Below are positions 1,541 to 9,522 of a DNA stretch of 39,973 nucleotides, piece by piece. The stretch is from assembly GCF_003287405.1 (NCBI RefSeq), contig NZ_PRLD01000017.1, positions 1 to 39,973 on the forward strand, given 5' to 3'. The DNA comes from Faecalibacterium prausnitzii (GTDB taxonomy: Bacteria > Bacillota > Clostridia > Oscillospirales > Ruminococcaceae). Position 1 is the stretch's first letter, and every line of letters starts with the position of its first letter. The notes under the pieces are model-generated. The model was not told the origin of the DNA. It did not search any database and saw nothing but the letters and a program-made list of their open reading frames with translations. The translations under genes were made by a program, and so were the position numbers.

Positions 1541-1825
1541 ATGAACTATCCTGCCAAGTATTTTGTACTGGAACAGGGCGAGCTGCCGGAGGTATCCGGC
1601 GGCGGCTTGCTGGATGTTTTTGACCGCGTGACCGCTTATACGTTTCAGAACCAGTTTCTGGGCAGTATGCGCACTGCCGTGTGGAACTGCCTGCTGCAAA
1701 AAAGCCTGCAGCCGACGGTAGACTGGGCAAAAGACTTCTGGCAGATGTCCCTCCTGCGAAAAGCGACCTTTCTGTACGGCGGTGTCCGGTTAGGGCAGAC
1801 CGTGGCCAACTACTGGAAGATGTAA
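1541..1825 (+). CDS. Double-glycine-leader small protein, MAM-like leader (copy 1)
   Basis: 94 residues, preceded by AAAGGA. Residues 1-21 form a bacteriocin-type leader: L10, E14-L15 and V18 stand at the usual spacing before G20-G21, where a C39-peptidase ABC exporter would cut. The predicted mature part is about 73 residues, rich in aromatic residues, with one Cys (WNC). It aligns with the protein at 5433-5717: both are 94 residues with GG at 20-21, and they share R-x-A-x-W, QP-x-VD-x-x-K and RL-x-x-TV blocks. The leader resembles that of Faecalibacterium MAM (MPANYSVIAENEMTYVNGG, from memory). The next gene, a glycosyltransferase, begins 16 nt downstream, so the two are probably co-transcribed. 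No peptidase transporter is in the window. Function unknown: secreted signal, bacteriocin or surface factor are all possible. Confidence 0.75.
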   Translation: MNYPAKYFVLEQGELPEVSGGGLLDVFDRVTAYTFQNQFLGSMRTAVWNCLLQKSLQPTVDWAKDFWQMSLLRKATFLYGGVRLGQTVANYWKM

Positions 1826-1841
1826 GACGGCAGGGTGATAT

Positions 1842-2609
1842 ATGGAGAACATCAAGCTGTTGGTGGCGATGCACAAAGCGTACTGTCTGCCGGAAGATGC
1901 AGTTTATGCGCCCATTCAGGTGGGCGGTGTACATATCCCGGGCATGGAAAACGCGCTGAGAGACGACACCGGAGAGAATATCTCAAACAAAAACAGATCC
2001 TATTGTGAGCTGACTGCTCTTTACTGGGGCTGGAAAAACCTGCAGGCAGATTATCTGGGGTTGGTGCATTACCGGCGTTATTTTGCCCGCAGAATGCCCG
2101 GCGGCAGAAAGTTTGACCGCATCGCATCAGGAACCGAGATCCATGCTGCACTGGAAAAAGCCCCTGTGATCCTGCCGAAAAAGCGCAATTATTGGATCGA
2201 AACGACCTATACCCAGTACATTCACGCCCATCATAAGGAAGATCTGGATGCTGTACAGAGTATCCTTGCAGAAAGATACGCAGCCTACCTGCCGGCCTAC
2301 GCAGCTGTCATGGGGCGCACCAGCGGGCATCGGTTCAATATGTTCGTCATGCGCAGGGACATTCTGGATGCATACTGCACATGGTTGTTCGATGTGCTGG
2401 CAGAAGCCGAAAAGCGTATCGATGCAGACCGTTATGATGCGTATAATGGCCGTGTTTACGGTTTTCTGGCCGAGCGGCTGCTGGACGTCTGGATGGAAAC
2501 GAACCATATTGCGTATACGGAACTGCCCGTGGTGTTTTTGGAAAATCAGCACTGGCTCAAAAAGGGCACTGCATTTCTCAGCCGTAAAATTCGATATAGG
2601 AGACCGTAA
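1842..2609 (+). CDS. DUF4422 family glycosyltransferase
   Basis: 255 residues, the usual size for this family. Typical DUF4422 blocks are visible: the N-terminal IKLLVAMHKAY, then PIQVGG, then NISNKNRSYCELTALYWGWKN, then YLGLVHYRRYF near residue 75, and NMFVM near residue 162. DUF4422 proteins occur in capsule and exopolysaccharide loci and are taken to transfer a sugar onto a lipid-linked acceptor in the cytoplasm. The donor and acceptor sugars cannot be predicted. The start ATG has AGGGTGA 6 nt upstream. The gene ends 3 nt before the polymerase gene, so the two are almost certainly translationally linked. It is the only ordinary glycosyltransferase in the cluster. Confidence 0.88.
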   Translation: MENIKLLVAMHKAYCLPEDAVYAPIQVGGVHIPGMENALRDDTGENISNKNRSYCELTALYWGWKNLQADYLGLVHYRRYFARRMPGGRKFDRIASGTEIHAALEKAPVILPKKRNYWIETTYTQYIHAHHKEDLDAVQSILAERYAAYLPAYAAVMGRTSGHRFNMFVMRRDILDAYCTWLFDVLAEAEKRIDADRYDAYNGRVYGFLAERLLDVWMETNHIAYTELPVVFLENQHWLKKGTAFLSRKIRYRRP

Positions 2610-2612
2610 AGA

Positions 2613-3794
2613 ATGCTGGTTTATATTGCGGCCACGCTGATCTCCTGCCTGTTGGCAGTCTGGTGCGAAAAACGGAACACCGATGCTCTGAACGCTATTG
2701 ACAGCAAACAGCGCTGGGGAGCGCTTGTGCTCTGTTCCCTGCCGCTTATATTAGTAAGTGCGGCGCGGTGGGGCGTGGGCACAGATTTCCTTTATACCTA
2801 TCTGCCGGAATTCCGGGCTCTGCAGTGGCTGCGGGCAGGCGGTGGCGATGCGCTGTGTCAGGAGCTGTTTGCGCCGATGCGCGAAGAGCTTACCCGGTGG
2901 GGGCTGTATGAGAGTCCAGAGTCTGCTTTGCAGTTCTTTTTGGGTGTGCTGGACAATTGCGAGCCAGGGTATCGGGTCTTGATGGAAGCTGCTGTGGCAT
3001 TGGGCGGAAACTTTCGTCTTGTAATCGCGGCAACATCTGTTATAATAGGTCTGTGCGTTTATTATGCCATATTCACCCAGTGTTCTGCTCCGGTTCTGGC
3101 TATCTACCTCTATGTAGCCAGCAGCAATTATTTTCTCAGCATGAACATCATCCGGCAGTACATTGCCATTGGCATCGGGCTGGTGGCCGTACAGTTCATC
3201 CGGGAGAAGCGGCTCTTCCCTTTTCTGGCCTGCGTGGCGGTGGCAATGCTGTTCCACACTACAGCGGTGGTACTGCTGCCGTGTTATTTTTTGTGCCGGG
3301 TCGAGCTGAACCCCCGCTATGCCCTGTTGCTGACAGCAGGCGTGCTGGCCTGTTCTGGTGTTTTGGGTACGGCTGCTGCCTGGCTGATGCCGCGGATCGG
3401 GCTGGGATATTATGCCCGTTATCTGGGTTCTGCATGGAGTGAAGACGGCTTTGAGACGATGTTCTTTGTCATAAACCTGTGCGTTCTGCTGTTCTGCGGG
3501 CATTACTGGAATGCAGCAAAGCAGCGCTGTCCCTATTACGTTATTTGGTACAACATGACCTTGTTAGGGACTTTTGCACTGGCACTGTCCGGGGTGCTGC
3601 CGTTGATGAAACGGTTGAATTACTACTATGCAGCCCCGCAGTTCCTGCTGCTTCCGGAAGCGCTGCAGACAGAAACAGACCCGCACCGCCGCCGCATCCT
3701 GACCGGGTTGGTGGCAGTTGCCTTTGCGGCAGAAACTCTGGTAGCTGTAGTGCTGCTGAACAAAAACGAAGTGTTGCCATATCGACTGTGGTGA
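2613..3794 (+). CDS. EpsG/Wzy-like polysaccharide polymerase
   Basis: 393 residues, very hydrophobic, with roughly nine or ten membrane segments. Family-like features are RWGVGTDFLYTY near residue 50, where EpsG proteins have an R-x-x-x-GTDY-like motif, and NYFLSMNIIRQYIAIGIGL near residue 175, a block typical of EpsG proteins. The product would polymerise lipid-linked repeat units at the outer face of the membrane. It lies directly downstream of the DUF4422 gene and 24 nt upstream of the phosphoglycosyl transferase. No flippase (Wzx) or chain-length regulator (Wzz/EpsA) is present in the window, so those steps would need genes elsewhere. Confidence 0.85.
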   Translation: MLVYIAATLISCLLAVWCEKRNTDALNAIDSKQRWGALVLCSLPLILVSAARWGVGTDFLYTYLPEFRALQWLRAGGGDALCQELFAPMREELTRWGLYESPESALQFFLGVLDNCEPGYRVLMEAAVALGGNFRLVIAATSVIIGLCVYYAIFTQCSAPVLAIYLYVASSNYFLSMNIIRQYIAIGIGLVAVQFIREKRLFPFLACVAVAMLFHTTAVVLLPCYFLCRVELNPRYALLLTAGVLACSGVLGTAAAWLMPRIGLGYYARYLGSAWSEDGFETMFFVINLCVLLFCGHYWNAAKQRCPYYVIWYNMTLLGTFALALSGVLPLMKRLNYYYAAPQFLLLPEALQTETDPHRRRILTGLVAVAFAAETLVAVVLLNKNEVLPYRLW

Positions 3795-3818
3795 TCACTG
3801 CATAAAGGAGAGAAAGTC

Positions 3819-4448
3819 GTGATCAAATGCACGGAGAGGTCAGGTGTCTATCAGGCAGTCAAACGCCTTTTTGATATTCTGGCAAGTCTTGCGGCTCTGG
3901 CGGTGTTGTCCCCGCTCTTTCTGGTGATCGCCATTTTGATTTTATCAGAAGACGGCAGACCGGTTTTTTACAAACACACCCGGGTGGGCAAGGGTGGAAA
4001 AACATTTCAGATGTACAAATTCCGCACAATGTATCAGGACCGGAGGATCGTTCTGACCCCGGAGCAGCAGGTGGAGCTGCAGCAGGAGTTCAAACTGGAA
4101 AACGATCCCCGTGTGACCCGGATCGGCAGCAAGCTGCGGATGTCCAGTCTGGATGAGCTGCCGCAGCTGCTGAACATCCTGAAAGGCGATATGAGCTTTG
4201 TGGGGCCGCGGCCCATTATGGAGCGGGAATTTGAATTTTATACTCCGGCGGAAACCGCAGCATTTCAGAGTGTCAAGCCCGGTCTGACCGGGTACTGGCA
4301 GGCGTATGCCCGCAACGATGCAACCTATCAGAGCGGGGAACGTCAGGCCATGGAGATGTACTACGTAAAGAATGTCTCCCCCTGGCTGGATATCCGTATC
4401 CTGTTCAAAACCGTAGGCGCAGTGCTGCGGAAGTCCGGTGTAAAGTAA
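3819..4448 (+). CDS. Phosphoglycosyl transferase (bacterial sugar transferase family)
   Basis: 209 residues, starting with GTG behind AGGAGAG. This is the small monotopic type (PglC/EpsL/RfbP C-terminal domain). One re-entrant hydrophobic helix lies at about residues 20-43, followed by the amphipathic FQMYKFRTM block (63-71). The catalytic Asp-Glu pair is in LDELPQ (D112, E113), with GPRP at 129-132 and PGLTGYWQ near residue 150. The enzyme transfers a sugar-1-phosphate from a UDP-sugar to undecaprenyl phosphate, the first committed step of a lipid-linked repeat unit. Together with one glycosyltransferase and one polymerase it could support a very simple repeat. All key residues are present. 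Confidence 0.93.
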
Positions 4449-4484
4449 GGCAGTAAGGCAACTTGTAAAAAGGAAGCAGCGTTT

Positions 4485-5300
4485 ATGAAGAAAGCACTGA
4501 AAAAAACGTTGTGTGGGATCGGATCGTGTGCGGTAGTGGCAGGTGGTCTGCTGTATTTTAGAGCTCATACAGAGCCATCGCCTTTGCCCGTCAGTGAACC
4601 TCCGGCTGCACAGAGTGCGGTCTCTGAGCCGGAAAGCAATTCGTCGACAGATACAGCAAAAGAAGACGTTGAGACCCTGATCCAAGACGGCGAGAACATG
4701 AGCAGCTCGGAAGTGGAAGAACTGCTTGAAAAGATCGCCGCACAGGAAGAAAATGCTGCCGGAAGTGAAGCATCTGCTGCAGCCAGTTCATCCCGTCCGG
4801 TGGGGGCTTCCAGTGCAGATACCAGCACGGCTGCGGTCTCCAGTTCTGTTGTATCGCAAAGCCAGAGCACATCCGCTGCTGCTTCTCATCCACAGCAGGA
4901 CGAATGCGACGCGCAGATCGAAGCGCTGGTAGCGCAGCTGTACCAGCAGCAGGAGCGCTATGAACGGGAGCTGCTGGAGATCATCCGGCAGGCACATCAG
5001 GAGTATGTTGCTTACCCAGAAGATCAGCGCAGCCTGATTTTGAAAGTACAGGTCGTTCTTGGAAAAACAAATGTTCTGACGGCGATGGAAAAGGACTGCG
5101 ATGCCGAAGTGAATAATATATGCAGCCAGATGACGGCTATTCTCAAGGCAAATGGTCGGGATACTGCCATCGTGCGGGAAGTAAAAAAGACATACACCGA
5201 TAAAAAAGCAGAACTCAAGCAGGAACTTATCCGTCAGACTTACAGCGGCGGCGATGGCAGCGGTTCGGCCGGGCATTGGCTGTATGATCGGCTGGAATGA
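4485..5300 (+). CDS. Membrane-anchored protein with Ser/Ala linker and helical C-terminal domain, function unknown
   Basis: 271 residues. A short basic N-terminus (MKKALKKTLCGIG) leads into one hydrophobic segment at about residues 8-25 (signal anchor or uncleaved signal). There follows a Ser/Ala/Glu-rich low-complexity stretch (about 30-138), which looks like a wall-spanning linker. The C-terminal domain (about 139-250) is helical and probably coiled-coil, rich in Gln and Glu (LYQQQERYERELLEIIRQAHQEY). I recognise no family. It sits between the phosphoglycosyl transferase and the second GG-leader gene on the same strand. The product is therefore probably an extracytoplasmic partner of polysaccharide assembly or of the peptides. 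That role is inferred from position only. Confidence 0.75.
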   Translation: MKKALKKTLCGIGSCAVVAGGLLYFRAHTEPSPLPVSEPPAAQSAVSEPESNSSTDTAKEDVETLIQDGENMSSSEVEELLEKIAAQEENAAGSEASAAASSSRPVGASSADTSTAAVSSSVVSQSQSTSAAASHPQQDECDAQIEALVAQLYQQQERYERELLEIIRQAHQEYVAYPEDQRSLILKVQVVLGKTNVLTAMEKDCDAEVNNICSQMTAILKANGRDTAIVREVKKTYTDKKAELKQELIRQTYSGGDGSGSAGHWLYDRLE

Positions 5301-5310
5301 AAATTTGTAT

Positions 5311-5407
5311 CTACAGCAGTTTGCTTTTTTAGTGCCTAAGCAGCACCCGCAAACTGCATATCGCAAGCATGATGTTTTATAGGCACTTTTTTTGAAAATC
5401 GCGATAA
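5311..5407 (+). repeat. ~98-bp structured intergenic repeat, copy A
   Basis: One of three related direct copies (others at 5786-5884 and 9386-9483). Ends resemble imperfect terminal repeats: CTACAGCA on the left and CGCGATAA on the right. Copy A has two perfect, interleaved inverted repeats: GCAGTTTGC (5316-5324) with GCAAACTGC (5349-5357), and AGTGCCTA (5331-5338) with TAGGCACT (5380-5387). The interleaving would allow a pseudoknot if transcribed. Confidence 0.75.
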
Positions 5408-5432
5408 CAAACAACGATCACGAGGTGGAATT

Positions 5433-5717
5433 ATGAAATACCCCTGCAATTACGATCTTCTCCGCGAAGAAGAAATGGTCTATATCGCTGGTGGTTCAGC
5501 GCTGGATGCATTCAACTACCTGTTTGGTGACTGGTTCCGCGATATGCTGCTTTCCGATATCCGCAATGCAACATGGGGCAGTATGCAGCAACTGAATGTA
5601 CAGCCTGTGGTGGACACCGGCAAAAAGATCGCCAGTTGGGCTTGGCCGGCACAGCTGGCCTATGGGTACGGTTTCTACCGTCTGGCGCTGACCGTAAAGA
5701 GCTTTCTGACCCAGTAA
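5433..5717 (+). CDS. Double-glycine-leader small protein, MAM-like leader (copy 2)
   Basis: 94 residues with a good GAGGTGG site 6 nt before ATG. The leader (residues 1-21) fits the GG consensus: L10, E14-M15 and I18 before G20-G21. It matches the pattern PxNYxxLxxxEMxYxxGG, which is close to the MAM leader recalled from Faecalibacterium. The predicted mature part has about 73 residues, rich in Trp, Tyr and Phe, with no Cys. It shares R-x-A-x-W, QP-x-VD-x-x-K, YG and RL-x-x-TV with the protein at 1541-1825. Export would need a peptidase-containing ABC transporter, not seen here. The gene is bracketed by copies A and B of the ~98-bp repeat and followed by a terminator at 5729. A separate promoter is not evident. 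Confidence 0.8.
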   Translation: MKYPCNYDLLREEEMVYIAGGSALDAFNYLFGDWFRDMLLSDIRNATWGSMQQLNVQPVVDTGKKIASWAWPAQLAYGYGFYRLALTVKSFLTQ

Positions 5718-5728
5718 AATGAAAAAAC

Positions 5729-5788
5729 GAAGCCGTCAGAGTATCATGTGATATCTATCACACGGTACTCTGGCGGCTTCTTATTTTA
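5729..5788 (+). terminator. Rho-independent terminator closing the polysaccharide/GG-peptide cluster
   Basis: A long hairpin with arms GAAGCCG-TCAGAGTA and TACTCTGGCGGCTTC and an inner GTGATA/TATCAC pairing. The T-rich run TTATTTTAT follows. It lies 12 nt after the stop of the second GG-leader gene. Confidence 0.8.
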
Positions 5789-5884
5789 TAGCAATTCAAC
5801 TTTTTAATGCAACAGCAGCAGCATTGCATTGCATATCGCAGATATGCTGTTTGAATGTTGCACTAATTTCTTGACTTGCGATAA
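5786..5884 (+). repeat. ~98-bp structured intergenic repeat, copy B
   Basis: Direct-orientation relative of copies A and C. The ends are TTATAGCA and TGCGATAA, which are inverted repeats with one mismatch. Inside are GCATATC/GATATGC (5831-5837 and 5841-5847) with a 3-nt loop, and TGCAACA/TGTTGCA (5808-5814 and 5856-5862). The latter replaces the AGTGCCTA/TAGGCACT pairing of copy A with a different but still complementary pair. Confidence 0.72.
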
Positions 5885-5913
5885 CGATCATTCTGCTATC
5901 ACTTCGGTTCCAG

Positions 5914-9329: not shown

Positions 9330-9385
9330 GCCCCAAAGGCGCAGAAAAAATCAGTCGTTTGTGTCGGGCGGCAGAAAAGTGATGG

Positions 9386-9483
9386 CTATAGCAGTTTGCG
9401 TTTTTAATGCACAAACAACATCCGCAAACAGCATATCGCAAATATGCTGTTTTGATAGGCACTATTATTGAAAATTGCGATAA
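9386..9483 (+). repeat. ~98-bp structured intergenic repeat, copy C
   Basis: Ends CTATAGCA and TGCGATAA. It contains GCAGTTTGCG (9391-9400) with CGCAAACAGC (9423-9432, one mismatch), and a perfect 9-bp hairpin ACAGCATAT/ATATGCTGT (9428-9436 and 9442-9450). It lies between the Clp ATPase gene and the terminator of the TPM gene. Confidence 0.75.
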
Positions 9484-9484
9484 A

Positions 9485-9522
9485 AGAACAACGCCGGAAA
9501 GTCCGCAGACCTTCCGGCGTTG
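9485..9522 (-). terminator. Terminator of the SPFH/zinc-ribbon/TPM operon
   Basis: A perfect hairpin, CAACGCCGGAA with TTCCGGCGTTG (9489-9522), with an inner GTC/GAC pair. On the minus strand it is followed by TTCTTTTA. It lies about 45 nt after the stop of the TPM gene. Confidence 0.8.

Follow-up and report, generated by a model that had tools for sequence, protein, structure and literature searches.

Double-glycine-leader proteins in a polysaccharide locus of Faecalibacterium prausnitzii as candidate cargo of a C39 exporter

The P1-P2 locus

The window analyzed here is one whole contig (C14, NZ_PRLD01000017.1; 39,973 bases) of a Faecalibacterium prausnitzii genome (GCF_003287405.1) that totals 3.03 Mb. 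Two genes for small proteins with double-glycine (GG) leaders, P1 (1541-1825, plus strand) and P2 (5433-5717, plus strand), open and close a same-strand locus in the order P1, DUF4422, EpsG, Bac_transf, P5, P2. Judged by these leaders, P1 and P2 would be cargo of a C39-type ATP-binding cassette (ABC) exporter, with cleavage after GG and export predicted. Each gene starts with ATG and encodes 94 amino acids, divided into a leader (residues 1-21, with GG at residues 20-21) and a mature part (residues 22-94). A preliminary description, made from the sequence alone, had given this length, the position of GG and the form of the leader, all of which were confirmed at these positions.

The leader consensus was scored as [LIV]x3E[LM]x2[VI]xGG within the first 45 residues of open reading frames (ORFs) of at least 40 amino acids in six frames. 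Among the 300 ORFs of the window, two match and these are P1 and P2, compared with a shuffled expectation of 0.01 per window. The consensus positions common to both leaders are I/L/V at -12, E at -8, L/M at -7, V/I at -4 and GG at -2 and -1. The P2 leader was also recovered, at E = 3.1e-9, by an independent profile (profile A) built from 18 GG leaders, with P1, P2 and their two relatives left out. P1 and P2 can be aligned by BLASTP without gaps over 91 residues (31% identity, E = 6e-16). When the leaders are removed, the alignment still scores 88, whereas 500 shuffles give a mean of 25.0 (standard deviation 4.9) and a maximum of 51. The patterns RxAxW, QPxVDxxK and RLxxTV are present in both proteins, and the earlier statement that the mature parts are related is thus borne out.

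Downstream of P1 are a DUF4422 protein (1842-2609, plus strand; PF14393, E = 9.8e-85), presumably a glycosyltransferase, and an EpsG-family membrane protein (2613-3794, plus strand; PF14897, E = 7.4e-44), which we take to be a polymerase. They are followed by Bac_transf, an initiating sugar-phosphate transferase of 209 amino acids with a GTG start (3819-4448, plus strand; PF02397, E = 2.2e-64), and by P5, a protein of 271 amino acids (4485-5300, plus strand) with an N-terminal hydrophobic anchor, a Ser/Ala-rich linker and a helical C-terminal domain. These coordinates follow the ORF list; the gene calls used for compared loci shorten some genes, including the window's Bac_transf and P5. P5 has no Pfam match above the cut-off and no match to any polysaccharide enzyme. 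A sequence search of the PDB and a fold search with P5 returned nothing at E = 1e-3, and the best folds are designed helical proteins. The spacers from P1 through P5 are 16, 3, 24 and 36 nucleotides, giving an operon-like run. Like Wzy-type loci for exopolysaccharide (EPS) or capsular polysaccharide (CPS), the locus has an initiating transferase and a polymerase-like gene, in the form of Bac_transf and EpsG; it differs from them in that no flippase and no CpsB-C-D gene was found by Pfam between P1 and P2, and in its additional P1, P2 and P5.

The gap between P5 and P2 contains a copy of an interspersed repeat (5299-5415, no strand assigned) with an inverted repeat (5331-5338 and 5380-5387) followed by a T run. 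Because of these features P2 may have its own transcript, separate from P1-P5. The fold of 5299-5415 forms the inverted-repeat stem, the fold of 5313-5395 favors a different pairing, and a terminator scan placed no site in the gap. The preliminary description had P1 and P2 bracketing a polysaccharide cluster and made together with its glycan. The bracketing holds for DUF4422, EpsG and Bac_transf, but less so for P5, which resembles no polysaccharide enzyme, and for P2 with its possibly separate transcript; likewise, the layout supports synthesis together with the glycan well for P1 and less for P2.

The interspersed repeat is intergenic, about 105 nucleotides long and partly palindromic, with window copies at 5299-5415, 5770-5890 and 9370-9490, the former two flanking P2. 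It is also found at L199 in the same genome, at L212 and L213 in G015 and at L229 in G014 (genomes and loci of the comparison carry labels of the G000 and L000 series).

The exporter and GG-leader genes in the genus

The preliminary description had proposed looking for a C39 ABC transporter elsewhere in the genome, and there is indeed one such gene, on contig C11 (L011:7161-9545). Its product has C39, ABC_membrane and ABC_tran domains, and an HlyD-type protein is encoded nearby. The peptidase part keeps Cys14, His92 and Asp139, which we take to be the catalytic triad of the C39 peptidase. We then compared 31 Faecalibacterium genomes using a second leader profile (profile B; 21 GG leaders, cut-off E = 1), which gave 177 matches by per-genome count. 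Leader matches occur in 28 of the 31 genomes, in G018 only at E = 0.9, and C39 matches occur in 27, that of G020 being weaker. With the only leader match of G018 scored as absent and the C39 match of G020 (E = 7.5e-8, 293-codon frame) scored as no exporter, exporter and leaders occur together in 26 genomes and are both missing from four; the exporter is never found without leaders, and a single genome has leaders without it (P = 1.6e-4, Fisher's exact test). This last genome, G025, is 77% complete.

Strong relatives of P1 and P2 outside the window's genome were found in two genomes (E = 2.3e-16 and 5.1e-16), namely those of F. longum CLA-AA-H243 (G012) and F. prausnitzii APC923/61-1 (G015); weaker matches to the P1/P2 profile beyond these cover mainly the leader. 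In a search of 396 genomes, presumably without G012 (seven genomes of the genus were drawn and G012 is not listed), the profile matched five at E = 0.001, all of this genus, and strongly only G000 and G015. The gene order in G015 is Wzz, ParA/AAA_31-type ATPase, CpsB, P2 relative, P5, so that the family and P5 adjoin a CpsC-CpsD-CpsB set as found in Wzy-type loci. In G012 the order is P2 relative, P5 and a 495-amino-acid protein that is chain-length-like by eye and has no Pfam match above the cut-off. A P5 homologue thus adjoins a P2-type gene in all three genomes with the family, in three differing arrangements, two of which have Wzz/CpsD/CpsB-type or chain-length-like neighbors. At E = 0.01, 10 of the 31 genomes have a P5 relative, which in one case is weak and interrupted by in-frame stops, and in five genomes, including the window's, a P5 relative lies behind CpsB either directly or after the P2 relative.

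To place other GG-leader genes, 32 loci in eight single-contig genomes, among the leader matches listed, were read along with loci of other genomes. Locus classes were assigned by Pfam on one example each and by BLAST to these examples for the remainder; the sigma-factor label comes from reading the sequence and from PMC8836110, not from Pfam. Eight of the 32 loci lie downstream of an MBOAT and ALGX/DHHW pair, eight downstream of a sugar ABC transporter and 4-alpha-glucanotransferase, seven in the MAM/sigma-factor or exporter region, five in a pilus region with a signal peptidase, two near a CapD-like protein and a polysaccharide flippase, and two near an ECF-type transporter. Automatic classification of 99 distinct GG proteins gave 33 O-acetylation, 26 MAM/sigma/exporter, 23 GH77, 7 pilus, 3 EPS and 7 other, the last including the P2 relative of G012, which is polysaccharide-linked by hand. 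The ALGX/DHHW gene is present in 30 of the 31 genomes, and in 26 of these 30 a same-strand GG leader begins 201-293 bp downstream; the four in which it does not are exactly the four with neither exporter nor leaders. One to four GG-leader genes follow the MBOAT and ALGX/DHHW genes at this O-acetylation locus (e.g., L012:6580-10163, and in 25 other genomes). GG genes are linked more strongly to the O-acetylation pair than to sugar transferases or CpsB, and this conserved arrangement provides a concrete lead on the purpose of these genes.

MAM, rival explanations and the proposed role

MAM, a Faecalibacterium protein, is reported as an abundant envelope protein with the leader motif MMMPAN-x(8,11)-VxGG, in agreement with the leader given in the preliminary description, and its core is described as three helices that form a hexamer and a surface lattice (PMC12184118). 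A peptidase-containing ABC transporter has been proposed as its exporter (PMC12184118, PMC8836110). P1 and P2 resemble MAM in having GG at residues 20-21, in the exporter type present in the genome and in being predicted all-helical cargo. The mature remainder is probably all-helical, and the low-confidence P2 model has three helices (23-53, 57-67 and 71-93) whose long-short-medium order resembles that of the MAM core (PMC12184118). They differ in length (94 amino acids vs. 135 in the described MAM) and in being located in a polysaccharide locus. The MMMPAN motif is absent, P1 starting with MNYPAK and P2 with MKYPCN, and a mature-only profile of P1, P2 and their two relatives found no better other match than E = 0.13 among the 99 distinct GG proteins. 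The term MAM-like therefore fits the leaders but not the mature parts, so that P1 and P2 would share the MAM-type exporter as co-cargo rather than being MAM itself. The same genome encodes other GG-leader proteins, among them a separate one with the MAM motif (L200:9115-9564, contig C29), about 15 kb before a CpsC-CpsD-CpsB-P5 set on that contig.

Partly similar systems have been described elsewhere. In Synechococcus elongatus, biofilm formation requires EbfG1-4, several small GG proteins that depend at least in part on one C39-type exporter (PteB) and have a role at the surface and not in killing (PMC4997328). That host is distant, no polysaccharide operon is mentioned in the available text, and the likeness is drawn without sequence comparison. 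The MBOAT-SGNH acylation pairs AlgI/AlgX and PatA/PatB are of the same kind as the enzyme pair found directly upstream of GG genes in most of the Faecalibacterium genomes compared, but the available text does not mention a GG-leader partner (PMC4148444, PMC12148441), and the window locus lacks these enzymes. The link between GG genes and the O-acetylation pair appears in none of the papers listed by our literature searches. Nor do the titles and openings of abstracts among these papers connect GG proteins with polysaccharide loci in this genus. The word polysaccharide does not appear in the available text of two MAM papers (PMC12184118, PMC8836110), and a survey of 84 strains mentions it there once, unrelated to GG proteins (PMC9846645).

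We propose, with a probability of about 0.55, that the only C39 exporter of the cell handles P1 and P2 as cargo and that these proteins, encoded in a polysaccharide locus, are made together with its polymer, as their position inside the locus would suggest. Given the leader consensus and an exporter in the genome, we expect this exporter to bind the 21-residue leader and to cleave it after GG, and the 73-residue remainder would then leave the cell. Outside, by analogy with MAM, it may act as a structural envelope protein, alone or as a P1-P2 pair. Synthesis of the polymer would begin with the sugar-phosphate transferase, with DUF4422 and EpsG extending the chain, as is presumed from their families, and P5 might, speculatively, link the polymer machinery and the exported proteins. 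P1 and P2 could thus be locus-specific surface proteins, perhaps bound to the polymer, as the preliminary description had suggested.

Several observations weigh against this proposal. The P1 leader reaches only E = 0.14 with profile A and is therefore divergent, so its assignment rests on the consensus and on homology to P2. The P2 structure model is poor, with a mean predicted local distance difference test score (pLDDT) of 58.5 and a predicted template modeling score (pTM) of 0.37, and was built from two sequences. P2 is separated from P5 by 132 nucleotides, with repeats on both sides. The P1/P2 family is rare, being found by strong match in 3 of the 31 genomes. Both relatives carry K at -7, and the G015 relative has GS in place of GG; GS cleavage sites do occur, less often than GG (PMC7595303). 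The CpsC-CpsD-CpsB-P5 set of the window's own genome (L199:7939-11000, contig C29) has no GG gene, and a GG gene is nearby at only 1 of 30 CpsB loci. A general linkage of GG genes to Bac_transf was considered and rejected: in a comparison by eye with the leader matches listed, only the window's of the 80 Bac_transf matches in the 31 genomes is operonic with a GG-leader gene, and in G006 leaders lie 7-8 kb from a Bac_transf gene with unrelated genes between. The class behind sugar-uptake and 4-alpha-glucanotransferase genes indicates that not every GG gene adjoins surface synthesis. Finally, the ALGX/DHHW gene is more divergent (53-62% identity) in the four genomes with neither exporter nor leaders, which may therefore be one lineage, in which case the Fisher P value overstates their independence. 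The polysaccharide context is present in three of three genomes for the P1/P2 family but does not carry over to sugar-transferase and CpsB loci in general. The recurrent linkage put forward in the preliminary description thus holds for this family, beside control-type genes in two further genomes, and not for sugar transferases at large. Taken with the exporter found in the genome and the leaders kept by the homologues, apart from the GS and K substitutions above, none of the three results that the preliminary description had set out as contrary to its idea (homologues lacking the leader, a genome lacking the exporter, no recurrent linkage) was obtained.

Three other explanations have less support than export as cargo of the C39 transporter. 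It is unlikely, in our view, that the neighborhood is largely accidental, with P2 or both genes being dispersed GG genes that landed beside EPS genes. The repeats at 5299-5415 and 5770-5890 on either side of P2 would fit such an origin, as would the lack of enrichment of GG genes at Bac_transf loci (among the leader matches listed) or CpsB loci, and the window's EpsG is found at E = 1e-10 in its own genome only among the seven genus genomes drawn, with distant relatives elsewhere. P1, however, ends only 16 nucleotides before DUF4422, the P5 homologue stays next to the P2-type gene in all three genomes despite differing order and genes, and the positions of other GG loci are highly conserved. 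Class II bacteriocins typically have GG leaders and paired genes as well, and P1 and P2 might be a two-peptide bacteriocin, or two bacteriocins, present in an EPS locus by chance. Of 18 GG proteins of the genus that were scanned, three have marginal matches to Bacteriocin_IIc (best E = 0.054), and a lantibiotic family is hit once (E = 0.0013); none of these matches is shown to be above the cut-off. For P1 and P2 themselves, neither Pfam nor NCBIfam gives a match at E <= 1. Their genes are 3.6 kb apart with biosynthesis genes between them, and no candidate immunity ORF was seen within P1-P5 or in the interval from P2 to the lipid kinase gene, although such genes are hard to recognize. We regard this origin as rather improbable.

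Slightly more improbable still is a role as signal peptides controlling polymer synthesis, which the preliminary description had also raised. The pneumococcal peptides VP1 and BriC, described as signals, share the GG leader and a link to biofilm, and VP1 is also linked to a glycan-processing locus (PMC7595303); a marginal match to the VP1 family (E = 0.07) is seen for one of the 18 genus GG proteins. The mature parts of P1 and P2 are nevertheless long, at 73 residues, and aromatic and charged positions are conserved throughout them. No gene for a sensor kinase, a response regulator or an Rgg-type protein was found between or beside P1 and P2, so that the signal idea finds no receptor or regulator at the locus. 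Within the genus, MAM is the best-studied cargo of such an exporter, and it is reported to be an abundant envelope protein (PMC12184118).

If P1 and P2 are indeed exporter cargo made with a polymer, their setting may be part of a wider pattern. Across the genus, a small number of fixed loci, several of them concerned with making or altering the surface, would carry a set of such cargo proteins, and the placement of GG proteins beside other surface-building genes in related genomes suggests that one exporter serves the whole set. We tentatively extend this to an idea that is possible but on balance doubtful: each surface system (capsule or EPS, O-acetylation, pili) would have its own MAM-type protein or pair sharing one C39 transporter, with MAM as one member of a genus-wide glycan- or surface-associated coat set, P1 and P2 as the partners of one polysaccharide, and P5 as a membrane link. 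Both MAM (PMC12184118) and the extracellular polymeric matrix (PMC4409148) have been reported as anti-inflammatory factors of Faecalibacterium. Were MAM-type cargo built together with surface glycans, MAM and the matrix may be one coat, and loss of the single exporter would affect the whole cargo set at once.

Further GG-leader loci

Some GG-leader loci can be described individually. At L201:341-9852 and six further loci (L233, L235, L239, L244, L247 and L252), a short GG-leader gene (73-77 amino acids) is located in a pilus region with genes for a pilin, an LPXTG adhesin and a signal peptidase. A pair of GG-leader genes follows the sugar ABC transporter and 4-alpha-glucanotransferase at L202:4330-10160 and equivalent loci. 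At L225:1455-7466 and L228:6649-12632, a GG gene belongs to the same-strand run that also encodes a CapD-like Polysacc_synt_2 protein and a protein of the polysaccharide flippase type, a decarboxylase gene lying in between; Pfam was run on L225 only. In F. longum, a 107-amino-acid GG-leader gene adjoins an FHA-domain protein kinase (L215:9240-11954).

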